A DNA stretch of 64,000 bases, taken from NCBI RefSeq assembly GCF_028389875.1, contig NC_084669.1, forward strand, positions 28,446,567-28,510,566, written 5' to 3'. The notes below the pieces were generated by a model. The model was given only the letters and a program-made list of their open reading frames with translations. It was not told where the DNA came from and ran no database searches. The DNA comes from Rhea pennata. Taxonomy: Eukaryota > Chordata > Aves > Rheiformes > Rheidae. A program made the position numbers and the translations under genes. Below are positions 1-40,925 of the stretch, in pieces (position 1 is the stretch's first letter; every line of letters begins with the position of its first letter).

Positions 1-3000
1 TCGGCATTTGGTTACAAGTATTTACTTAATTTTATGCAATATAAATTGCATAACTACAACTACTACTCAAATTATTCATTATGAATAATGTATTTCAACA
101 AATACGAGCCTTTAATGTGTTTGCAGTTGATTTGCAATCAGTTCATAATTTTTATGTCTAAGCTCATTTTTTCAAGTTGTTTACTAGTTTAGGTTATATG
201 AAGTGGGATTTTATAGATCTCCAAGTATTTATTATGCAGTTAATATGCAAGAGTTTGTGATTTATTGCCCAAGATGTTTCCCCCCACTCCCCCTCCCTGG
301 AAGTCTCTGGGAGTCTACCTGTTGAACAGCCTTCTCAAATGTTTATTGTGTTTGAGTTTACTGTGCAAGTAATGGGAAGAGAAGTGTAAGCTGATGGCAA
401 GCACTTTTCTACTTCGAATCTTCTTGTGTAAATATTAATGCCTGCAATCGTTGTGCTATCTTCTAACAAATTTTTGTTCGTTCCTTCTAAGTGAAAATGC
501 CATGAGTATTCATGACCACATTAGTAACAGTATGTGTAGAGTAGCATCTTTTATATGAAAGAAGTAGAAAAAAACTGAGAAATGTTACAGGAGAAAAGAA
601 GCTTATGGCAAAGCTGCATTTTCTGAAAGAGGAATGCTTCTTTCACATCAGATCAATTTCTGGCAACCTGCTGGAAAACAACTTTTTCAGCGCCAGATGT
701 TCTGGTGCAGCCCTGCTCGCACCGGCCCGTGTGAGCCTGTATGCACTCACGTATTTATCTTGTTTTTTCTAGCTGCCTGACTTCCCAGCGTGGCTGTTTG
801 GTTCAGTTTCTGCTCATCATCTGCTGTTGATGTTCGTTCTTCAGTTCCCCAGAGCCTCCTGTCACATACACCCTTGAGAGAGATGGTTTGGGAATAACGA
901 CGACGTGGAAATGACATGACTGTTATGCGTTTCGTTGCTCTCCCCGCCAGAGGTAGGATTTCCAGGCAGCGCAGGCTGAGGGGCTGCTGGGGAAGGCCAG
1001 AGCACGAAGCGGGAGGCAAATGGGGTGTTTTGACTCCTGCATTTTTATCCATTTCAGTCAGTGAGTGTCAGGCGTTTGCTGGGCAGGGGAAAGAGAAGCA
1101 ATTAATGTAGCACGTAGCTTGTCCTGACATGACGTTAATTTGCAGTTATGCTACTTGAGCAGAAGGAGCAATCAAGTCTTTACACAGTCGGGGAAAGCTG
1201 AACAGGGAACGTTGTCCAAGGCGGAAGGTCGCGATTCGAGCCCCCCGATGTATGCCGTAGGGGTCATTTGGGCTCGTGTATGGAACTGCGCGTTTACAGG
1301 TGTGCGCACGGCCGCCTTGGAGCAGTGCTGGCCCTGATGAACGCCAGTGTCAGATAGGAAATTGGGAGCTGTGCAGCTCTTCCAAGATTTCACTCGCTAC
1401 CTTCTGGGGAGCTACTAAGACAGAAACATGCTCTGCCGTTTTTGTTCTGCGCTCTGCGTAGTACTGTCATGGCTGTGTTGACTTAAACTCTGGTGTGATT
1501 TTCCAGTGCAATTTTCCTCTCCTGATGAAATGTCCTTAATGTGACAAGCTAAAATAAGTGTCTGTAAGGAGGCTGCCTATTAATATGCCTTGTAATTAGT
1601 ATGTCCTGTATCGGTGCTCAAGAGGCAGAATTCCAGTTAGCCTCTCTGGCTCTTGGGAGTTCCCTTTTACTGTGAGCTAGGGAAAAGGCCAAATAGTCGG
1701 GGGCTCGGCATCTCTCCTCTAGTCTCTAAGAAGAATGACTCACGGATCGGTTTCCACAGATGGGTGGCCGTGATCCTCTGTGGGGAGACTTTGTTGCCAG
1801 GACAACTGTTGCCAAGACAGGCTAGTTTTCCTTGGGAACAATTTGTGATTTCCCTGTGTTCTTTCTGTAGAGTGAACCATCTCCTTGGGTCTGTTGTTAG
1901 ACCCCTGCAAGGAATTTCCCTGCTGGAATTTCGGCTCCAGTGGGAGCCAACAGGAAGGGCAAGCCACCCCCATGGTCGTCCAAAGGGAGTTTGGAGGCTT
2001 GCGTGGGTCTGCACAAATTTGTGATCTCTGAGAGCATCCGTGCACTGTGCGGACATGGGCCCCGAAACCTAGCGTGGTAAGCCTTTCCCGGCTATGAGAT
2101 CAAAGTGAACTCGGAAGCTTACTGTTCTTTTCAAAAACATACAGCTGAGAATAGGATGAGGTCCTTAAGGATATTTTATGTTTTAGTACATCACTATAAA
2201 GGTTTTTACAATTTAGTACAGGGGCTGTGATCAACAACTTGTGCAGGCTGAAAGCACTGGATTCCACTGCCTCCCCCTGTCTGCAATAAGCTTGCACTTT
2301 TTGGAGTGACTGCTAGGCACTGATTCAGTGGAGATTTGCTTTGATTATCGTATAATATTAGATAAAAATTCAACTGAATGGATGCAAAGCATTTGGATTG
2401 CTAAGCTACTTTTTTAATACAAAGCAAACAAACTTAACACTCTTGCTGTCCACCAGAGGTCACCTGCAGGCCATTTGACTCAGTACTGACTGTGCTTTGA
2501 CTTGCCTAGTTAGTGTATTTCCCCTGCTGAGTACTTCTGGACCAGCAGCGCAAATGCATGGTCCTGAAGACTCTAATCTTGACTTTGAATCTTGTCTTAG
2601 AATCATTAATATGCAACATAGAAAGGCAAAATCCCCCTGAAACATAAGGAAAACGATAAAAAAAAAAAAAAGTGTTGGTATTTAATTGGCCCCATAATTG
2701 GAGTAGCTAATCTCCGTAACTACCCCATGCTTTGCAAGCTTCACTGAGTATATTAAATAATTTTCAGAGCACAAAGACTCTATCTCGTATTATCAAATCT
2801 ATGCAGGATTCTTATCAGGATGCTTATCAGTTCAGTCTTCATGAAATGTTTTTCCATGTGCACTTTAATTGAGAAGAAAAGTGTGGCTAGGTCTTCTGAT
2901 ATTCTCATACTTCAATTATATGTGAATCTCCATTTTTGCATGCTTGAGGAGGCCTGTGCTTTACAAATTTATGTTGCAACATGAATAAAACTGTCTAGAA

Positions 3001-6000
3001 TTCTTAGCGACTGATCAATAAACAAACATGAACATTTTTTTCTAATTTTGGCAAAAAATGGGATTCCACATTTTCTTTCCTAGTTAAAGCGAAAAGCTTA
3101 AAATCGGACATGGTGTTTTATGAGCTCCTAAGTATCAAGAAAAGGCAGAAAATGTATTTGAGCAGAAAATAAGTATAGACTTATTTTGATTCTCTGCTGA
3201 ACTAAAACTCCTTTCCATACATGTTTTATTTACAAGTGGCTGAAGGAAAAGCAAAGGAAGAGTGAGGAAGGTGCCTGCTCCTTCCAGATGAATGAGGGGC
3301 AGGAATCCCACTTTGTTCAGTAGCCCAATAGTTAGCTTGTATGCTCAGAACTTGGTATGACTGACTTTTATTTTTGTCTTGTGACTTTTTGATGGCAGGA
3401 CCTAACCAATTTTTGCACAGAGAAAGATAGCACCAAACAGTTTGGAAACCTGTGCCCATGTAAGTACCTGATCTTAACAGTTTTTGTATGATGCAATTGA
3501 TTTATAGCGGATATCAGGATATAAACTGTGGTTTTGCATGAAGCACTGTAGTTTTTCTTTGTGTGTGAGTGGGCTGGAGTAGAAGAAAAATGTGAAATCT
3601 TGTCGTTCTCTGTCTTTCTGGCTGCCTAATTCTTCTGATATTTGGGACAAAGTTGTAGCTGCTCAGATACAAGGTTTTTAAAATATGTCATGGTTTTACA
3701 CATGGTTTACAGTTTTCCATTCTCACTAAGTAGTGCATTTTTTTCAGAAGTCAGACAGAAAGTTGGGTAAAAAGTGGCGTGCTGGCTATATAACAACTTT
3801 TCCCAGGTGATGGATGGCCCATGCACAGACACATTGCAAATGTATAAGGTAGGCTCCCTTACGTCTCTATGAGGGTGAAGACAGAGTATTATACATGCTG
3901 ATGCTTATGCTATTGTATCTGCCTTCTGCCATGAAAAAGGGGTCAGACTTTGTATATTACAGTGTTATTCCTATTTATCTGTGTTATTGCTATGGCATTG
4001 CTCCTAGTGTGTCCTGCTGTGTAAATCTATAAATATACTCGCTAACGAGCAAATGATACTTTCACCTTGCTCTTAACACATACAGTGGACACAAGATTCA
4101 AAGTTACTTTTTATCATTAACGAGGATTGAGTCAAGCTACCAGCCCAACATGTGAAGCAACTATTCAGCCACATAGTCTTTGGGGCAGGTTGACAAGTGA
4201 AAAGAAATAGATGAAGAGCTTCAGCTCTGCTCTATCTTTCTTACTGTGCAGAAGGTTGTATATATGGTAGGTTACACAGGAAAGGAATAAATTACTGCTC
4301 ATTCAGAAGAAAAAGATCCTGCACAGGACAGCATCCATTTGTGTCTTACTATGAGCTCTAATTAAACTCACTGTAGCAGTGCCTATTAAGAATGATGCCT
4401 GAATGCCTGGTCTGAGATTTTTCTGAAACAAGGTCATTCCTAGGATTTTGTTCTTCAAAGGTCTTTAATCCTACCTCTGCTTGTCTCAATGAAAACTCTG
4501 AAATGCTTTTTAAACTCCTGGCTTGGAGATAAGAGTGCTCTGTTAGCTTGACATCAAAGAGAATCAATGAGCTTGCTGTGCCTCTCAATCCATTGCTTTA
4601 GCCATATATTATTTTGCAAGCTTCTAGAAGCTGTCACCCTGCTCTGCAGTGACAAAAATAATTAGATGTGGTTCCCACTTCTGTTTTGCCCATGTGATGT
4701 TGCTACTGGTGAAGAATACTCAATGCTGATGGCTCCAAAGGCAGTGCTGAGACTTCAAAAGCCAAGTGTTCTCACATGTTGAGCTGCTCGCTTCTCCGAG
4801 GGAATCTTCAGAGAGCTGCACCATGTAACAAAGAGCAGCCAGACATAAGACCTCAGAATAAGTGGTATGTAGGCCGAAGGTATATTTACACATCTAAATA
4901 ACGAGGAACTAAATACTCAAGCTGGGAATAAGGAGAACCAAATAATTCTAGAGGAAGGGAATGCTGCATAGAAATGATGAGGTAGAGGATGGAATTACAA
5001 ATCCAGTGAAGAGAAACACTTAATAATCTGTGAATACTATGTCACCTGCCCTTATGATTTTTATTTGTCATCTGATGCAGAAATTTACAGGAACCCTGTA
5101 ATTTTAGATACTACATATAAACATGCTACTTTGCCATAGATGAGTAAATTTCTACGTGGTAACCTACATTTCAATAAAATACTTCCCATGATATTGTTTT
5201 GTGTTGAGCTGGTAAGAACTAGGGACGTGGAAATTGCTGACAACCCCATCTAGTTTGTACTTCCACGCTTCCACATTTAAAAGCAAAGAGAAGTTCAGGA
5301 AGGAAATATAGACCATTTAAGTGGGTTGTGAGGTTACAAGATGAGCTGTGGATGCCATGTGTTGACAGCATATTGATACCATGTTCTGGTTCTTGACCAA
5401 AATAACAAGGGTTAGATTCCTAATTAAAGAAGTAGATCTCTAATTCCAGATCTATATTGGCTTTACGATGTTTTTATCAAATCATGGCTGACAAATAAGA
5501 CTACTCTGAACTGATTTTTTTAATCTTATTTTACTTAAATTAAACTTGTTCTGGCTCTTGAAGAGAAAGGGTGCAGACGTAGCCTGACCAGCTACCACAT
5601 CTCAATCTGATTCCACCAAGTGAGAGAATAACAGCCCCGGAAATAGGATTTTGGAACAAAATCAGTCCTGTTTGTGCAAGGGGGATAGAGGATTTGGATT
5701 GATTTTTGCAGCTAGCACTGTCTAGCAGAGCTTCCTCTGGGTAAGAAAGTTTTCTGCTGGCAGAATTGTCAGAGACACCTTCCTCGGCATCAAATGTTAT
5801 TCATTTCAGAGCTAACCATGGCAATTTTCTTACATGCACGCTCTTCCTACCACTCTACTTTTCATGTCCACATAATTTGTACAGCTTAGCCAGCTGTACA
5901 ATACAAGCTGCACTGGGAAGTGCAGTCTAATCTGTAGCTGTGTGACTAGCATTATAGGAAGACCAGTATTAAGAAATTTACTTAAAAGTTTAAAGTTTTA

Positions 6001-9000
6001 TTCCTTCACCCCACATTGTTCCTTCAAATCTCACCTCCTATTTTTAAAAATAAATGGGTAGGTTTGAGTTGGACAAGGGTTTTCCAGGGATAATTCGGAG
6101 CGTGTTGCAGGAAAGACAGTCACTGAGGTCAAGCAGGACCCAAGTCAAATAGCCTTCCCTCTCCCAGGTTATTCAAAAATGGATCCACTGACTGAATAAA
6201 GGGGAAGAATCTTACAGTCGGAATGCTCATTGCCTGCAGGTGTTCCAGTTTTTTGGTTGTTCAGTTGTACTGTAACATAGCCAACATTTGTCCAAGGTTA
6301 GGCAAAGAGCAAAGGGCTTGCTCCCAGAATGCCATATGCAGTACCCATAAATAGGGATGATAAGGTTGAGTTGGGCAATAGTTAGAATTGTGCAAGATAG
6401 AGAGAGATAAGCCAGTATACCACCTTTTCCCAAAGGAAAGCAGAGAATTACAGGTTTTAGTTAAAATGTGGTCATTTTGGTCTTTTTTTTTTCTTTCTTT
6501 TCTTGTCTTCCATTTTTAGGGAGAGGTGTCAGCAGGCTTATCCTCAAGGTAAAAATCCAGTAAATTTTCATTTGTTTTCTACTACATTCTGTTATGCTGG
6601 CTGTCAGGAAAGCCAGTGGTGCAAAAGAGTTTCTCTGTGTACTGATCAAGTAAAATTGTTGGTAAGTAATAGTGTCCATACTAAGATAATGCAACTCTTT
6701 CAGGTGCAGATATGCAAGTTAGAAAGGACCTTTAATAGCTGCCCTACTGGAGCATTGCAAATTTACAAGGAGGAATGTTAGCAAGATGTGATCCATCAGT
6801 TCAACGGCATTCTGCCTCTTGGTATTCTCTGTATAAATGCAATAACTGCTTTTGAGGAGCAAATATTTGAATTTAGTAGGGCTTCCCTGTCCTGTCAGCT
6901 TCTCAATCTCCAGGGTTAATGACTCAGAGCTGTCACCTCCAAGATTAGGTTTGAAACAAAGACTCCCTGATGCACCTTCCTGGAGCTCTTCCCTGATGTT
7001 TTCTGCATTGAGTGAATCGTGTCCTAAAGCATTTCTTGTGGAGGAACAGAAGAAATTCTTGAGATTTATGTCTTGAAGTAAGGGCTCCTACATCACCTTC
7101 GGAACTACCTACCTCCTAAATATAAAAGAAGTTTCATTGCATCTTTCAGGGCCTAATTCTGATCTCTCTGTTGATAAACTCTGCCAATGTCTTCGGATGC
7201 AAGGACTCTGTCATTGCATCCACAGTGATTCTCCATGTGGGTTTCTCAGTCTAAACATGCATATATATTGCAAAAGCCTTTTTTTTTTTTTTTTTTTTTT
7301 TTAAATCTAAACCACTACCACTGTTGTTGCAAATTGTTATTTATCTCCTTGGGGAGTCATTTTGCTACTAGGAAACATTGTTGCAAAATGGAATTGCAAA
7401 AATAATTTGCAAAAGGTAAACAGGCGGTTCAGCTCTCCTAGAATAAAGGGCTGGGATGGTCAAATTGGAAAGCTTTAGAGATACTTGCATCTTAGTCCCT
7501 GGAGGAGAGGAATGCAGACCAAAACAAAGGCTTATGTGAAAAGAAATCTCTCTAGTGAGATGACTTCTCTGAGAGTTTAACATTCTGTTTTCAAGGTTTT
7601 TTTTATTGGACCAATATTATGAGCGTTGTTTTGCTGCCTTCGTGGGAGACAGCAGAGACATCAGCTTTCCTGGTAGTGAATAATTAACAAATATATTTTA
7701 AAAAGCCAGAAAAAAGAAGCCATCAGAGGCATGGGAAGAACTAGCCCGAGTCCATAAAGCTGGATAAGAAAACATGGGTTAAAGTTTCTTAATCTGGTCA
7801 GCTAAAAACCTTTCGTTATTTTGTCTTCCTATATACAGTTGATGTTGGTGTGAACCTAAAGGAAGCAGCACAGAGAATTATGTAGAGAAGTGGCACTTTT
7901 TAAATTCTGCTTCTTAATGATAATGTTCTCACAGTAATATGCTACTGATTATACTTTTTATTGTTCTTTATCAGATGGGACATGACAGGACAGGCTACTC
8001 TCTATGGATAATCTTTTGTAAAGCTTAAAATAAGAAGAAGTAATTGAAAGGAGTTTCAAAATTCATTCTGGATTTGATTTTCTCTCCTTATTCCGATATA
8101 TAAAACTAATGTTTCCTTGGACTTGTTTTTGATTTTAGTTTGACTGATGGTACTGGGAGAATAACAGGCCAATTGACTTAAGTATGTACCTCTAACTCTA
8201 AAAGTTTATGTCATCTGATGTTTGTGGTAGTTAAACTTTTTTTTTTCAATTAAACACAAACCACCTTAGACACAATTGTTTCAAACTTGACCCTCATTTT
8301 AAAATCAAGGATAATTACTGTGATGCAAATGGTTAACATGTCATACAGAGCTTTTACCTTATGGTTTTATTGCCTGTTACTGTTTTCCTGCTCAGAGAAG
8401 GCAGCAAAGTATTGCAGTTCTGGGATCCAAAAGTAATTCAGCTACTGAGGAAGAATCGCATTTTATTAATATACAAGCTCTGAAAGGAATGAGAATGAGA
8501 AGCAGTCAGATCATGACTACTTAAAAGCACTTAAACGTTTTGTAATTCAAGATATGGGTGTTTGCTGCTAGTGGAGATGCTATCTTGAGAAATACTTCAG
8601 TCTAAGTTTAGATGCACAGTAATCCTGATAGCTATGGAGAGAAGAGTCCCAGGAGAGATGCAGTAGTCACAGGGTTTAGGATTCATCTCAAACTGGAATT
8701 CTCTGTGATTCTCTCGGCATAAGGAAAAATCCTTTAATTTAGACATGTGAGGAAGAAAGCATTAAAAGAGTTTGCAGCATGGTGAGGTAGATGACTGTTT
8801 CTATTAGATATTTTCATTAAGCCTTGAGATTTTCAGCTTCTTATAAGCTTGGTTTTCATACATACAGATACAATCAGAGGCTGGATGAAACTGTTCAGGC
8901 AGTACTCCATGTTCTTGCTGCTTTGACTGAAGAGAGGAGTGTATCTCACAAAAGAAGAGGAAGGTCTGTTTTGACAATCTATAGTCATTGTTTGAAATAC

Positions 9001-9749: not shown

Positions 9750-10262
9750 ATAAATAAATATGGGCTAGGGGCCAACTGGCTGAAGTGCAGCTTGTTAGAA
9801 AAGGCTCTAGGGGTCCTGGTGGACACCAAGTCGACCATGAGCCAGCAATATGCCCTTGTGGCCAGGAAAGCCAATGGTATCCTGAGCTGCATTAGGAAGA
9901 GCATTGCCAGAAGGTCGACGGAGGTGATCCTTCCTCTCTGCTCAGCACAGGAAGATATGTCTGGAGTGTTAGGTCCAGTTCTGGGCTCCCCAGTATAAGA
10001 AAGAGATAGAGGTACTGGAGCAAGTCCAGCAAAGGACTGCTAAGATGATGAAGACACTGGAGCACCTGTTACATTAGGAAGGACTGAGAGCTGAGATTGC
10101 TTAGCCTGGAGAGGAAAACTCTCGGGGATCTTATCAATGTGTTTAAATATCTGAAGGGAGGATGTAAGGAGGACAGGGCCAGACTCTTTTCAGCGATGCC
10201 CAGTGACAGGACAAGAGGCAACAGGCACAAACTGAAACACAAGAAGGTCCTTCGGAATCCAA
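9750..10262 (+). mobile_element. CR1 LINE fragment (end of reverse transcriptase ORF plus 3' part)
   Basis: The + strand reads through a degraded end of the CR1 ORF2 product, with the characteristic pieces [14 protein letters not shown] and [13 protein letters not shown] around 9800-9890. After that come CR1 landmarks: a 'caggaagatatgtctgg' type block, 'aggactgctaagatgatgaa', 'gcttagcctggagaggaaa' and 'gtgacaggacaagaggcaa'. CR1 (chicken repeat 1) is the dominant non-LTR retrotransposon of birds and is usually 5' truncated, as here. The reading frame is broken by stops soon after 9990, so the copy is dead. The 3' boundary is uncertain; sequence after about 10262 no longer matches the element by eye. 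Confidence 0.88.
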
Positions 10263-27256: not shown

Positions 27257-30200
27257 ATGTTATGCTGTTCATTCTACATGGTCGCAGCAGTAGCTGCTTT
27301 TCTCGGGTCTTGTCATGCACAGGATAAGTGCACAGGAATACCTGGGCTACCTGGTACTCCCGGAGCTAATGGGCTGCCCGGAAGGGACGGAAGGGACGGT
27401 CTGAGAGGAGAACCGGGTCCACCAGGTAACTGCGGTGATTATCTTCACTGTACTGCATGTGGACGAATCGTAAGACTACAGCAAGGAAACAAATGTCTTG
27501 TTGTATGTTGTCTTTTCATTCAGACAAAATAAGGCAATAGTAGGTTTATTTAAATGTCTAGTCATTGCCAGTTCCAGTAAATTCACACAGTGATTTTTTT
27601 CTGCTCTGAAGTCAGCAGACTTCCTTTTTGCCACAAATCCTTGTCATGAAGGCTGCAAGAAGAAAAGATGGTAACGCTGAGGAACAGGTGCCCTCTAGGA
27701 AGCTGTTGTGCTGAGCAAAAGAGAGAAGAACTGAATGGAAGAAGTGGTCAGCTTAGTTTTTCTTTCTGAAAGATAAGCTGCTTTTCTGGGAAGAGAGAGG
27801 AAATGAACAGTTTATCAATATTTAAATATATATATATATGTTTGTATGTATATAGACACAGCTTATATACTTAGATATATACATTATATATTATAGTGTG
27901 TATATATGTTCTATATATGCATTATATATAAAGTGTGTGTATATATGTGTGTGTGTTTATGTACAGATATGCACACCCTCATAGTGCTTTTCTATTCTTT
28001 CATAGCAGAATGATTTTTTTAAGCATGAAGAAAATGTTATTCCAATAAGTATGAGTGCAATTAAAAGGCTTCTGATATGTTTTTCCAGTATTGGAAGGTA
28101 GTGTATGTGAAGTAGTCTGGTAAGGAACACACTTTACATCGTATAGTTTTCTTTCCAGTAGAAATGCTTTTTCTAGGTACAGTATCAAGGCTAAAGCACT
28201 ACCAAAATTGTTCATGGATATAACAGTTTACAGTTTGAGATTAAGTTCTGTTGTGTCCGGTCCCAGAATATTCATTGATTGGAAAGAAAATCATATAACT
28301 AATTTTATTTTCATGTTTCTCTTTTCCAGGTCCCATAGGACCCTCTGGAGGTCCAGTGGGGCCTCCTGGAAGAGATGGGCTTCCCGGACCTCAAGGACTC
28401 AAGGGAGAGCGAGGCGAGAAAGGAGAGAAAGGGGACATTGGACCACCAGGTGAAAAAGGCTGATCTCCGTGTAAAGTTCTGTTAGTTGGATGCACTGTTT
28501 ATGTTGGGTCAGCTATGTTGTTTCTCACTGGCAGGGAAGTGCAGTAAGTCAGAGCTGCAACATTGCAGCTCAGGGAGAGGGAACCACATTCGGGCCATCT
28601 ACATTCCCGGCTGTTTTAGTTGCGAGCAGTTGCAATACAGTCACGCAAGCACATTAGTAACTTCCCTCTACACATAAGCCTGTTGTTACCGGTGGCCGTT
28701 TGTGTGGAAAAGTGTCTGCTTGGCAGTCAGTGCTGGATTAGCTGTGCGTGTTTCCCACGACTTAGGCAGAAACCCTCCTATACCAGTGTTTACAGTTCAC
28801 ATTAAAGAAGAATCCCATTGCAAAAGCACAAGGGATCCGTTTAGCTGACTAAAAGGAAACGGTATGAGCTGAATTCTGTTTAGTGCCATAACACAAGTTC
28901 CCTCCCCAAAATCTCCTTTGTGCTTGTTCAGTAACAATCACTGGAATGAAGCAAATTCTCTTTGTCAGAGACATAGGCAAGTACGCTACCTTAGGATCTT
29001 TGCACTTTCATGGGAATGACAGAAATGTAAGCCTTCAACCTAGAAATGTGTGTCCTGTTTTTCTTATAGTTTTTCCTAGGCTCTGTGCAGAGGTGATTTA
29101 TCAGCATTTTGGGGGTGTGGGGCTGTTAGCCATACTGGTTAACTACAAGATGAAAAAATAATGGGAAAATAATTATTTTACCCTAGGTGATGTAAGAAAA
29201 GTACACCATGCACGATTAGTTTTGTAAAGTGATTAGTTTTACCCCATGAATTGTTCCTGTCAGCAGAAGCTGGTTTTGCTTGATTGTATAACTTCTCTTT
29301 TTATCTGTGTAGGTCTACCTGCTTCTCTTGACACCGAATTACGAAACGTTTTAGTAAGTTTAAAACGTCGACTTGCCAGACTTGAAGGCGGTAATTTTTC
29401 TGTTTTTACTTTTTTGGCTCACAAACCATTTTAAATGCAGTGGAAAAAAAAAACATTATTAGAGAATCATGACTTGCAAAATAAAATAGCACTTGAAGCC
29501 TAGTACTATATTTCAAAACTAGAGCTTTCTGTTAAACATCAGCCAAGTATCTTACAAGTTTTGTTGGATGTCAGCAGAACAGGAAAAATAAGCTAAGGCT
29601 TTTTCAGCAGGGGGAGGGAGTTGCTGGAAAAGAGCCTCTGCTTGTTTCCTGTACTGCCACAGACTGATTTTTGGCCTCAAATAAGGCTACTAGACTAGAT
29701 CTTCAAAGATAAGTAGGTGTGTTATTCCCACTAATTTCAGAGGGAAGTGAGACTTTGCTTGCTTCTCTGTCATTCTTAAAGCAGAAATAATGTGCTTGCT
29801 TATCTCCATATTAAAGCTGTTAAGAATTACTTAAATTAGTTCACTTAGATGCTATAGTAATGTTCAATATAAACAGGTGCCCAAAAAGTAATACAAAGGC
29901 TACTGTAACGTGGAGTGATGCTCTGCACTTTGCAAAGTCCTGGATGTTTCAACTGTAAGAAAGCATGTACTGAGATATACTTCATTAGTGAGCACAAGAT
30001 AAGAACCAGAGTAAAGCATACTTTAAAGAGAGAATAAAATGGACTTGAGTATATACAGGGAAGCTGAAATTTAATGAATTGTGATAGATATAGGGAGGAG
30101 ACTTGCTGTTTGTTTTGCTCAGCATACTACCTTTACAAAGGAAGTTTTCCTCCTTATTTTCATCTGATCAGAGTGAGCTCTTACTCTATTGAATAGCATC

Positions 30201-31460
30201 AATAGTTGAATTATTGCAGAAAATGTAAATTTGTAGTGACCACCTTCAAATGTGTTTCCTTATGAGAAGTAAAATTTGCCCCTAGTAGTCTGGGCACCCC
30301 CTCTCTTGGACTACAGATCCTCCTGAGAGGAGGGAGCAAGAACTGGAGAACTGGGGGTCCCTCATGAGACATGGCACAAGACCCATTACACCAGCAAGAA
30401 GTTGTTTGTCTATAAGAGATTATCCTATTTTCTCCTCCAAAGTAGAGGACATTACACAGAACCTACTTTCCCTGCAGAATCAGATTTCTCAGGAACACTG
30501 ATTGCATTTATTCAAATTTAATTTATATATATAAAAAAATCCCAATTGATGTTGCATGTTCCATAATGATTCATGGAAATCCCTCAGCCACACACTTGTA
30601 CAATATTGCTAGCATTTAGATCTACCAGTAGTCATTACAGGTGGTGGAAAGAATTCTTTGTTACTGAGAAGTACTTCACAAAATAATTAAAATATCTCTG
30701 TTTCCTTTGCTCAGAGCGAAAGCAAAACTGACACTCTTTAGGAAGTACACACAGTAAAACAGGGCTGATACCGTATGTAACGAATGGTAGCAGAGCATCC
30801 TTGTCTTGGAGGAAGTGATGACAGATGGTTGCATGCAACATAACAGTATACTTGCTGAATAACTAATGAATTTGTAAAATTTTGAAGAGCTTCATTCCTC
30901 ATCATCCTTTCCTTCGCTCTCATTTTCTTGCCCTAATCTCTTTCCTCCTTCTGTCTTCTCATCAATTTTAATTTTCTCTTCTTCTCTTGATTTTTCTTTC
31001 TTCACTTTCCTATCAATATGCCAGAGGAAATTAAAAAAAAAAAAAAAAAAACACTAACTAGCTCTTTCCTTTTCATATTTTAGTGCTTGCTTTGAGCGCA
31101 AAAATAACAGAAGTGGGAGAGAAAATACTTGCCAGCAATGGGAAGGAAGTCAATTTTGCATCTGCACTAAAGTCCTGTCAAGAGGCTGGAGGAACTCTTG
31201 CAACCCCCATGAATGAGGAGGAGAATAAAGCTATTTTGGGTATTGTGAAGCAGTATAACAAATATGCTTACTTAGGCATTAAAGAGAGTGAGACTTCAGG
31301 TCAGTTCAGCTATATGAATGGCACACCTCTGAATTACACCAAGTGGCGCAAATATGAACCAAATGGCAAAGGGACAGAAAAATGTGTAGAAATGTACACT
31401 GATGGAAGCTGGAATGACAAAAAATGCAACCTGTATCGCCTCACAATCTGTGAATTTTAA
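27257..31460 (+). CDS. SFTPA1: Surfactant protein A-like collectin (avian SP-A), 4 coding exons, 247 aa
   Basis: This is a secreted collectin that binds microbial and surfactant sugars in a Ca2+-dependent way, an airway innate-defence protein. Coding exons are 27257-27425, 28330-28449, 29313-29390 and 31084-31460, all with GT/AG borders and phase-1 junctions. Residues 1-21 are a signal peptide (hydrophobic [12 protein letters not shown]), followed by QDKC, whose Cys fits the N-terminal interchain disulfide. Residues 27-96 hold 23 Gly-X-Y triplets with one interruption (GGPV) at the 13th triplet, matching the mammalian SP-A kink. Residues 97-122 are the neck ([13 protein letters not shown] resembles mammalian SP-A). 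Residues 123-247 are the C-type lectin domain with the Ca2+/sugar motif EPN, WND, the Cys set ending in TICEF, and sequons NGT and NYT. An in-frame extension past 27425 is intron. The start is the first ATG after the 15-nt leader of this exon. Confidence 0.95.
27816..27965. repeat. TA/TG-rich microsatellite in intron 2
   Basis: An irregular mixture of (TA)n, (TATG)n and (TG)n lies between the first two coding exons of the SP-A-like gene. Confidence 0.8.
31033..31051. repeat. Poly-A tract near the acceptor of the lectin exon
   Basis: A run of 19 A lies about 30 bases upstream of the acceptor tattttag at 31083. The pyrimidine tract of the acceptor lies between the two. Confidence 0.9.
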
Positions 31461-34600: not shown

Positions 34601-35195
34601 ACAATTGTTATTAATTAAAGTGTATTTAATAATGGTGGACTTTGGCTACGAAAGATGGATGTTGATTGTAGAGGGGCTTCTCTCTAATCTAGAACGATAA
34701 CTTATAACTGTGTAATTTAATTGAGTGGAGGGTAGCTTAGAAATACCATGAGCAATTTTGAGCAAAACTCAGAAGCCTCTCTTGTCCCCTCGCAATCTCC
34801 ACTGCAGGTAGAGAAAGTGACCTTTGATAAAGCAGCTAAATACATTTTTGTTGGCTTTCTGATTTTTGTGGAAAAATGATGAAAACAAGCCCCACAGTTC
34901 TTGGGAGGAATTATTTTCAAATTAATTCTTAAACGAACATTGTAATTGATAGGATGCGATACAGGATAATACGTCTAGCCTATCTTGTATAAACCATGAT
35001 CAGCACTTCCTTTATACGTGTGTGTGCGTGTTGGTGTGTATGTATGGGTTTAATTTGGAAGATAAGTATAAAAAAAAAAGATAAAAAAAGACATTTATTC
35101 CTGTGTTCTTTTCCAGGAGCCCATCTATGGTGGAAAAAAAATGAGTACTTGATGCTGCGACATCCTAGCAGTGCTGCAAGTACCAAGCAGGTAAA
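31655..35195. other. Intergenic interval after the SP-A-like gene
   Basis: No gene is recognised. A T tract (33909-33923) and an A tract (33958-33975) about 35 bases apart could pair. Otherwise the sequence is AT-rich without visible repeats. A segment at about 35118-35191 is framed by an acceptor-like ttttccag and a donor-like gtaaag but has no recognisable product. Confidence 0.5.
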
Positions 35196-35199
35196 GGTT

Positions 35200-35480
35200 A
35201 ATCATACATTTTAATATGTGCCTTTGTGTTAGCAAAACAGTAAGTGGAAATGGGAGAAGAAATACTTGCCATCAGGAAATTTGTTAACTGACTTTGAAAC
35301 CGCAGTGAAAGAACTAATGGCCCTATTACAACTCTCATGAACCAGAGAAAAGCAATATTTGCAGAGTCTTGTGCAATGATTTAACAGACATGTTTATCTG
35401 AGCCTGAAAGAGCATCAGACTGCAGGTAAATTTCATTATTTGAAGTAGAGAACTAGAGTTAAAAAATTGTATTAACCCAC
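35200..35480 (+). pseudogene. Decayed third collectin lectin-domain exon
   Basis: This stretch aligns by eye to the lectin exon of both neighbours, in the same orientation. Matching blocks are tgggagaagaaatacttgcca (versus tgggagagaaaatacttgcca in the SP-A-like gene), ctcatgaaccagag (versus ccatgaatgagga there and cgcggaaccaggg in the lung lectin), gagcctgaaagagcatcagactgcagg (versus ggcattaaagagagtgagac in one gene) and caggtaaatt (versus caggcaaatt in the lung lectin). The similarity continues upstream into the intron, where the acceptor AG is now AA. Frame-shifting gaps, in-frame stops and loss of the first conserved Cys codon show it is dead. Past about 35480 similarity fades, with a possible trace to 35545. 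No neck or collagen exon partner was found. Confidence 0.72.
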
Positions 35481-35585
35481 AGTTACACAAATTGGCCTGG
35501 TTTAGAGCATGATCAATACTGGATGCTTGGAAATAAGAGTAGCCAGCGCTCAAAATGATAAGGGGCTAAAGCCCTGTTAGGAAAC

Positions 35586-35770
35586 GTGCCTGGTGGAATT
35601 TGGCTCCAGGTAATCGGGCAAGCGTGGTGCCCCGCGGAGCCAGGAAGGCAGCGCTGGTGCGTCCCTGCCTCTGCGGCTCCGGAGTCGAGTCAGCGGGAAC
35701 CACGCTGCCAGGGACCGCGAGCCTCACAGGGAAATGCCGTGAGCGTAGTGACGGTGGTAAAGGCTGCAGT
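35586..35770. other. GC/CpG-rich patch next to the lectin relic
   Basis: There is an abrupt rise in GC and CpG content compared with the AT-rich flanks, with several frames open on both strands. No protein family is recognised. It could be a small unmethylated island, a decayed exon or a GC-rich insertion. A donor-like gtaatc follows ctccag at 35610. Confidence 0.4.
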
Positions 35771-39000: not shown

Positions 39001-40925
39001 ATGCTGTCACCACAGCTCTTCCACAAGATCTTTGGAGCGGCGTTTTTCTTGCTCGCCTGCTGTGCTCAAGGTAACTCTGCAGGAATTCCTCCTGCACCCA
39101 ATTTCACCCCCTTGCCTGAGGATGGGGTAGTTGAAGGCTTTGTATCAGGTATCTGCAGTTATCTCTATTTTTATCTAGCTGTACTGTTGTATTCCATTTT
39201 TATGCTTCATGAACCAAATGTTATGTTATATAATCTGTCATGGGTTCTATCTGATAGAAGATAATCAGGTATTTATTAGTTCCCCTGTATAAAGAAGTTT
39301 ATATCCCTCCTACCTAATGATTCTGAATGGTTCACTCACAGAGGAAAGGATATCATTCTGCATAACACAGGGCCACAGACTTTTTATTAGTTTAGGATTG
39401 AGTTGTGAGCAGCAAGTGCATCAGCAGTCCTAAGAAAGCATTAAAACTCCAAAAGTAGCTTCCAAGAATTTATTCTCTGTCTTTATGAAGACTAGTGTGT
39501 GAAAAATACCTTATTTAAAACACAGAATTAAACTAAAACTTATCAAACACAGAACACTTTAAAAGTTCTATTCATTTCACACAACTGTCTCTACTTTATC
39601 TTGAAATCCAAGATTGAAAAAAATAGACAAAGTGTATAATGGTTGTTTCTGTTTTCAGATTTCCCATCACTTGCTGGTAATGGAATGGAAGACATTATCC
39701 TTCAATTAGACTATCAAATTTCCAGACTTGAAGGAGGTAATTTATCTGCTTTTCCTTTTGGCTATGACTGGCTATAACAGGCATAAGCAAAATACGCCCC
39801 CAAAAAAAAAATCTTAGAAAAATGGGGGGAGCAGAATTTTCTGAGTTTTTGCTGCATTCCTTTTATGTTCTGTTCCTCAGTAGACAGGAGAGTGATTAGT
39901 TACAAATGGTAGGAGGGAGGCCAGACAATTATTTTTCCATAACTGGTGAGAGATGCCTAGGTAACAGCAGCAAAATATGGATGCAAGCAAGTCAGAAATA
40001 TTTATCAAACTAAAATCCCTGGCTATGTAGAAGAAGTGCTCCATTGGTATCTCATGCTCCTAAGAGGCAAAAATAAACAGAATATGGTAAACTCAAGAGT
40101 AAAAAAAAATACCATAATAATTACAACAGGATCATATCCAAGGTCCTGCTCACTGAAGTACTGGCGTATTTTTATGCTCTGTATGCCGTCTCAAAGAACT
40201 TAGAGAGTACAGGGCCAGAGACAAAGAAAAAAAAATATGCACTTTGTCTAAATGTAAATTCCTCATTTCCTTCCCTTCTCTCCAACCTCTTTTGTACTTC
40301 TCCTATTTCATTGTCTATCTATCTATAAGTAAGTATTTCTTCCTTTTTTTTTTTCCTCCCCTCATCTTTTCAGATTTCTTCTGGGTTTCAGGGTTTTTAT
40401 CTTTGATTTCAAGTTTTCCTCTCCTTTCCTTTTTCCATTGGTTAAATCTAAAGTTATGGAGGAATACAGACTGTGGGAATTACTATTGCTAGCAAAATGA
40501 CCACAAAACAATACGTAAAAGATTATAATCTTTCTCTTGATTTTGCAGTCCTCCGTTTGGAAGGAAAGATAACAGAATCTGGAGGAAAAATATTTGCTAC
40601 CAGTGGGAAAACTGCTGACTTCTATACTACCGTGCAAAAATGCGAAGAGGCTGGGGGGTCCATCGCCACCCCGCGGAACCAGGGCGAGAACGCCGCCATC
40701 CAGTTCTTCGTGAAACAGTTCAAGAAGTACGCCTACCTGGGGATAAAGGAGTCTCTACTGCCAGGCAAATTCTGTTCCCTCAGCGGTGCCGAACTGAATT
40801 ACACAAACTGGTATTCAAATGAACCTTCTGGCAAAGGGGAAGAGGAGTGTGTGGAGATGTACACCGACGGCACTTGGAACGACAAGAAGTGCCAACAGAA
40901 TCGCCTTACTGTCTGCCAGTTTTAG
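39001..40925 (+). CDS. cLL: Lung lectin (collectin lacking the collagen domain), 3 coding exons, 200 aa
   Basis: This is a secreted C-type lectin of the SP-A branch, with the architecture described for chicken lung lectin. Coding exons are 39001-39148, 39659-39736 and 40549-40925 (GT/AG, phase 1). Residues 1-22 are a signal peptide (FFLLACCA). Residues 23-49 form a short Pro-rich linker with sequon NFT and no Gly-X-Y repeat. Residues 50-75 are the neck helix (IILQLDYQISRLEG). Residues 76-200 are the lectin domain with NEPS where the SP-A-like neighbour has EPN, WND retained, sequon NYT, and the terminus LTVCQF. The neck (78 nt) and lectin (377 nt) exons have the same lengths as in the neighbour. 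Without collagen the chain should form trimers only through the neck. A GC-rich, CpG-rich block (about 40640-40745) inside the lectin exon contrasts with the rest of the gene. Confidence 0.95.

Follow-up and report, generated by a model that had tools for sequence, protein, structure and literature searches.

Decayed collectin exons in the lung-collectin cluster of Rhea pennata: a probable third SP-A-type copy and SP-D-like relics

The living genes of the cluster

We analysed a stretch of 64,000 nucleotides of Rhea pennata DNA (the window; contig C7:28446567-28510566) and searched a genome whose 180 contigs add up to 1.27 Gb. The window holds two intact collectin genes, SP-A and cLL, both on the forward strand; they were read from the sequence, with support from the Pfam Lectin_C and Collagen families (Table 1). 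On the strength of the absence of collagen in cLL, we take this gene to be the ‘avian SP-A2’ of the literature, an equation that is made here.

Other features were documented in and around the window. Exons of an S-adenosylmethionine synthetase gene, identified by Pfam, adjoin its right end on the minus strand (127-8208 of the flanking locus L027); this is presumably MAT1A, a neighbour of the human collectin locus. An open frame at 54261-54494 matches small integral membrane protein 3 (PF17307, E 2.9e-7). A 254-base repeat at 9763-10012, which we take to resemble part of a CR1-type element, is 76% identical to a copy in the left flank and has an open frame without a Pfam match.

Table 1 Exons of the living collectin genes and the decayed CRD exons (positions are those of the window unless a contig is named)
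Feature	Position	Strand	Basis
SP-A exon, signal peptide and first collagen repeats	27258-27425	+	Pfam Collagen; ends from GT/AG in sequence
SP-A second collagen exon	28331-28450	+	Read from sequence
SP-A neck exon	29314-29391	+	Read from sequence
SP-A CRD exon, intact	31084-31460	+	Sequence, Pfam Lectin_C
cLL exon, signal peptide, without collagen repeats	39003-39149	+	Read from sequence
cLL neck exon	39657-39736	+	Read from sequence
cLL CRD exon, intact	40549-40925	+	Sequence, Pfam Lectin_C
Relic A, decayed CRD exon of SP-A-lineage collectin	35202-35562	+	nhmmer, Smith–Waterman, protein alignment, trees
Relic B, decayed CRD exon, most like SP-D	4713-5037	+	Protein alignment scan, PDB search
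Relic C, second decayed SP-D-like CRD exon, 3.6 kb left of window start (locus L026)	C7:28442759-28443004	+	Flank scan

A decayed lectin exon between SP-A and cLL

Relic A lies between SP-A and cLL, in the orientation of both. An nhmmer search of the window, with the SP-A and cLL CRD exons masked and their DNA profile as the query, matched 35247-35443 at an E value of 8.6e-15; the other two matches listed had E values of 0.97 and 1.1. Smith–Waterman alignment of 35180-35620 scored 497 against SP-A and 326 against cLL, values reached by none of 2,000 dinucleotide shuffles in either case (maxima of 352 and 255; z of 10.7 and 7.1). The best of 1,100 other window pieces (550 places, both strands) scored 308 against SP-A and 304 against cLL, so that measured against real sequence the margin is clear for SP-A (497 versus 308) and thin for cLL (326 versus 304). 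A frameshift-tolerant alignment of DNA to protein gave 115 for SP-A and 82 for cLL, where 600 shuffles reached no more than 47 and 51; it pairs 35222-35562 with the first 112 of the 124 residues of the SP-A exon, with around 8 extra codons from 35452 and around 56% identity at aligned codons. An initial annotation of this DNA had placed a decayed lectin-domain exon here, aligning to both neighbours and in their orientation, and these results bear it out; the extent it gave, 35200-35480, ends too early, as homology runs for a further 82 bases.

The exon is disabled. Stops fall in all three frames, there are several frame changes, and the first conserved cysteine of the CRD falls in a gap; the open CRD frame of a functional collectin is absent, and relic A makes no lectin now. 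No other copy of it was found in the genome.

Similarity fades at the exon edges. The 120 bases of upstream intron align at chance level (141 of 1,000 shuffles were as good for SP-A and 437 of 1,000 for cLL), and the last 30 bases or so are marginal against SP-A (26 of 2,000) and indistinct against cLL (222 of 2,000); the initial proposal that the upstream intron aligns thus holds, marginally, for this short stretch and for SP-A alone. On the 3′ side, no alignment with the neighbours was found beyond the exon. The splice acceptor was said to have changed from AG to AA: an AG is indeed missing from the aligned place, but the reading ‘AA’ depends on where a gap is put, and other AGs stand a few bases on (for example, at 35231).

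Affinity of relic A

Several lines of evidence rank the SP-A lineage first. Profile scores were 107 for SP-A, 83 for cLL, 80 for the SP-A group, 51 for the SP-D group, 34 for the MBL group and 28 for CL-10/11. A phmmer search of 177,635 PDB sequences with the read-through of relic A, which was guided by SP-A and cLL and is therefore biased towards them, returned 5 SP-A sequences first (3.7e-8 to 1.4e-7) and SP-D from 1.6e-4. The loop and CRD length is of the SP-A/SP-D type, MBL being three residues shorter, and the residues T-x-G-K-F are common to relic A and SP-D.

Likelihood trees were built from 11 reference CRDs and relic A under LG+G4, with constrained trees obtained by fast search, on an SP-A-guided and a cLL-guided alignment. 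Under the two alignments, AU tests rejected placement with SP-D (p 0.020 and 0.005) and with MBL (p 0.004 and 0.0005), and were borderline for CL-10/11 as the sister (p 0.062 and 0.048). Sister positions to SP-A (0.62 and 0.72), to cLL (0.16 and 0.27) and to rat SP-A (0.07 and 0.13) all went unrejected, as did those to SP-A plus cLL and to the whole SP-A group. The CRD of relic A is closer to SP-A and cLL than to SP-D, MBL or CL-10/11, and these comparisons of sequence support its assignment, as a pseudogene, to the SP-A lineage.

Within that lineage, relic A is equally divided between its neighbours. At the 39 amino-acid sites at which SP-A and cLL differ, it agrees with each at 10 and with neither at 19 when the guide is made of both; the split is 11:10 of 42 sites with an SP-A guide and 8:11 of 38 with a cLL guide. 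This agrees with the earlier view that the exon is not a plain recent copy of either gene. At third codon positions that differ between the two genes it matches SP-A 30 times and cLL 18 times, a lean that may be explained by base composition and the GC-rich third positions of cLL; DNA alignment scores are also higher for SP-A than for cLL. Of the short strings that the initial annotation had assigned to one gene or the other, ‘aatacttgcca’ is present in the SP-A exon and absent from cLL, ‘gaaccag’ is present in cLL and absent from SP-A, and ‘cagg-aaatt’ fits cLL, which has CAGGCAAATT there. The fourth, ‘ctcatga’, had been called SP-A-only and occurs in neither functional exon (SP-A has cccatga).

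Traces of an earlier coding life

Where SP-A and cLL agree, relic A differs from them at 43 of 137 first and second codon positions and at 21 of 37 third positions (p 0.007); the third-position excess has p 0.0007 against cLL alone and 0.06 against SP-A alone. This excess, which is inflated by third-position saturation, points to protein-level constraint on relic A after SP-A and cLL had split. At sites fixed in three SP-A proteins, relic A has changed at 27 of 77 first and second positions, a count that gives no date because it mixes decay with older divergence.

Signal, collagen and neck exons to accompany relic A were not found in 31.5-35.2 kb by nhmmer, blastn, protein alignment or a scan for Gly-X-Y periodicity. 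For five front-exon queries in this region, the top score was also reached by 5, 7, 22, 33 and 35 of 40 shuffled regions, and the SP-D neck query had a single shuffle as its control. SP-A collagen exons that had been planted after simulated decay to the level of relic A outscored all 40 control pieces in 36 and 39 of 40 trials, and a planted SP-A neck exon, likewise decayed, did so in 27 of 40. Given this fair power, relic A had a different front end, lost the one it had or never had one, and each of three histories would fit: a front end like that of cLL, the deletion of a front end, or duplication of a part only. The initial annotation had taken relic A to be the remains of a separate, older paralogue. 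An old copy of the SP-A lineage is what we recover; a complete gene is not, with no other exon found, nor is a branch outside both neighbours, with three placements unrejected.

Two SP-D-like relics to the left of SP-A

Relic B emerged from a scan of 592 window pieces (296 places, both strands) with a frameshift-tolerant aligner. It scores 132 against SP-D (shuffle maximum of 52 in 300), followed by MBL-A (100), COLEC10 (98), SP-A (96), cLL (92) and COLEC11, or CL-11 (89), and group profiles give 126 for SP-D, 100 for CL and 98 for MBL. It retains W-E-x-G-E-P-N-N and E-K-x-L-I-I-C-E-Y. Of the best 60 of 62 matches in a PDB search with a reading assembled from guided alignments, the leading 9 are SP-D or conglutinin (4.2e-15 to 2.7e-12); MBL follows from 4.5e-11 and SP-A from 8e-9.

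Among 930 pieces from 60 kb to the left and 40 kb to the right of the window, limited to pieces free of N (the left flank contains 83 N), relic C was the only further CRD found. It scores 63 against SP-D, 42 against MBL-A and 35 against both SP-A and cLL. With a reading guided mainly by SP-D, all 9 of its PDB matches are SP-D or conglutinin (7.9e-6 to 6.5e-5); a guide-free phmmer search was weak, with 4 matches, all conglutinin or SP-D, and a best E value of 0.29. By score and rank, SP-D is the best match of both relics.

Trees are less specific. For relic B on an SP-D-guided alignment, positions beside SP-A or cLL were rejected (p 0.003 and 0.0005), and those with CL-10/11 (0.20), with MBL (0.059) and at the base of the SP-A group (0.058) were unrejected; on an SP-A-guided alignment, the cLL placement alone was rejected. 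For relic C, two alignments rejected positions beside SP-A and cLL (0.007 to 0.009) and left CL-10/11 (0.53 and 0.68), MBL (0.15 and 0.20) and the SP-A base (0.15 and 0.20) unrejected. Diagnostic residues were uninformative for all three relics: with an SP-D guide, SP-D and SP-A residues were found at 5/16 and 1/8 (B), 5/16 and 1/6 (C) and 5/13 and 2/9 (A), and with an SP-A guide at 2/14 and 2/7, 3/16 and 1/6, and 2/19 and 2/9, respectively.

Relics B and C are also alike in DNA. Their alignment, which covers 4509-5190 on the relic B side, scores 682 (shuffle maximum of 312 in 300), with an identity of 0.69 in the exon (213/308). The 5′ flanks alone beat shuffles (256 versus a maximum of 155 in 500) and the 3′ flanks alone do not (116 versus 123 in 500); identity in the real 5′ flanks is 0.676, and shuffled flanks align at 0.675 over shorter stretches. 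On the DNA alignment, mismatches at the three codon positions number 19/78, 21/76 and 31/80, a mild third-position excess, and because of it both relics may have remained coding for a while after their separation. A previous count by SP-D-guided codons, which are less well paired, had given 23, 21 and 22 mismatches of 51, without a positional difference. Free decay of both relics since their duplication, along with a date for them, was considered and dropped in view of the third-position excess and of shuffled flanks that reach the identity of the real 5′ flanks.

Collagen exons upstream of relic B were not detected above control (the query score was equalled by 4 of 40 shuffles), although decayed exons could escape such a search. 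A scan of 164 kb for Gly-X-Y periodicity recovered the two SP-A exons at 13/13 and 12/13; the next best places (101811, plus strand; 64384, minus strand) reached 7, and one shuffle reached 6.

Collectins elsewhere in the genome

The intact CRDs among the matches listed in the genome are those of SP-A and cLL, two that we presume to be CL-10 and CL-11, and one at C2:49.05 Mb. No intact SP-D is among them (150 of 167 candidates scored, and 38 of 38 in another search), in a reading that covers the CRDs other than the one at C2:49.05 Mb. An MBL gene was not found with a rat MBL-A query (30 of 30 matches scored), and has been lost or is missing from the assembly; chicken has a mannose-binding lectin gene. 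A complete absence of SP-D from birds has been reported (Kunchala et al. 2025, PMC12077231). Because of that report and the lack of an intact SP-D in our searches, relics B and C may be remains of the SP-D that birds lack.

Weighing the explanations

The reading that we favour, with a probability of around 0.7, is that relic A is the dead CRD exon of an old third copy of SP-A type, and that the cluster probably also lost an SP-D-like gene, represented by relics B and C. Relic A might instead be a stray CRD exon, copied from SP-A (or cLL) in a partial duplication, that never belonged to a gene and was in decay from the start. The lack of any other exon, at fair power for SP-A-like collagen exons, the higher alignment score for SP-A and the presence of the sister-to-SP-A position among the equally best trees all suit such an origin, which we nevertheless consider unlikely: it leaves the even sharing of amino acids with SP-A and cLL and the third-position excess of change unaccounted for, and similarity ends near the exon edges, whereas in a recent genomic copy it would extend farther into the intron or the 3′ side. 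The mammalian gene order has MBL1 between SFTPA and SFTPD, and the place of relic A between two surfactant lectins, together with the T-x-G-K-F that it has in common with SP-D, would suit an avian remnant of MBL1 or SP-D. That identity is very improbable given that both alignments reject SP-D and MBL in the AU test, that the scores for the MBL group (34) and the SP-D group (51) fall below that for SP-A (107) and that the domain has the SP-A/SP-D length rather than the shorter one of MBL; MBL1 was rejected as a candidate at the p values given above. Chance similarity, for which the low identity to SP-A might speak, was refuted by the shuffles (0/2,000 and 0/600) and by the nhmmer E value, and we give it practically no weight.

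For relics B and C, the source might be another collectin, an MBL or a CL-10/11-like gene. AU tests leave room for this (0.20 for CL-10/11 and 0.059 for MBL with relic B; 0.53 and 0.15 with relic C), the CL and MBL group scores of relic B are 100 and 98 versus 126 for SP-D, and with no MBL gene found in the genome one would expect to meet the relic of an MBL somewhere as well. On the other side, SP-D and conglutinin take the first 9 PDB places for relic B, all 9 matches of the mainly SP-D-guided relic C and all 4 of its weak guide-free ones. We rate a source other than SP-D at roughly one chance in a few. The most far-reaching reading takes relics B and C for what physically survives of bird SFTPD beside SP-A, and relic A for a lost third SP-A paralogue, so that a cluster of at least four genes was reduced to two; it seems to us evenly poised between right and wrong.

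A history of duplication and loss

Under the favoured reading, in which relic A is a dead SP-A-type copy, a third SP-A-type collectin would have arisen by duplication, presumably in tandem, inside the lung-collectin cluster, at about the time at which SP-A and cLL parted. It would have spent some of its existence under constraint at the protein level, with a presumed functional phase, and would then have decayed through stops, frame changes and small insertions and deletions. The same cluster would probably also have lost an SP-D-like gene, with relics B and C as its two putative decayed copies.

Relic A resembles SP-A (SFTPA1) and cLL in its CRD exon, its orientation, its place between them and its SP-A-type loop length, and differs from them in its frame changes, stops and inserted stretch, in the missing AG at the aligned acceptor and in the front exons that were not found. 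The mammalian collectin locus has pseudogenes of its own, human SFTPA3P and MBL1P. These, like relic A, are collectin copies that died within a cluster of this kind, but relic A is equally near to two living paralogues and not close to one. Mammalian SP-D (SFTPD) and conglutinin are the closest match of relics B and C, which differ from SP-D in being disabled, confined to the CRD region and present in two copies; unlike mammalian SP-D, they have SP-A between themselves and the S-adenosylmethionine synthetase gene.

As a dead gene copy, relic A is nothing out of the ordinary, but it is genuine and old, and it supports the initial suggestion that the cluster once held more collectins than its two living genes. 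In the accessible part of the report on SP-D in birds (PMC12077231), neither ‘pseudogene’ nor ‘locus’ was found. A study of raptor genomes names SFTPA1 among the genes under positive selection in two orders of raptors, and the pseudogene passages in the accessible part of its text concern filtering and olfactory receptors (PMC6714440). A literature search, with most subscription journals outside its scope, found no title on collectin pseudogenes in birds, so novelty is unproven.

The loss of SP-D in birds has so far been known as an absence. If relics B and C are its readable remains, the death of the gene could be traced and dated in birds and crocodiles alike; relic A suggests a shrinking of the SP-A branch as well. 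Both would bear on the defence of a lung that has no SP-D.
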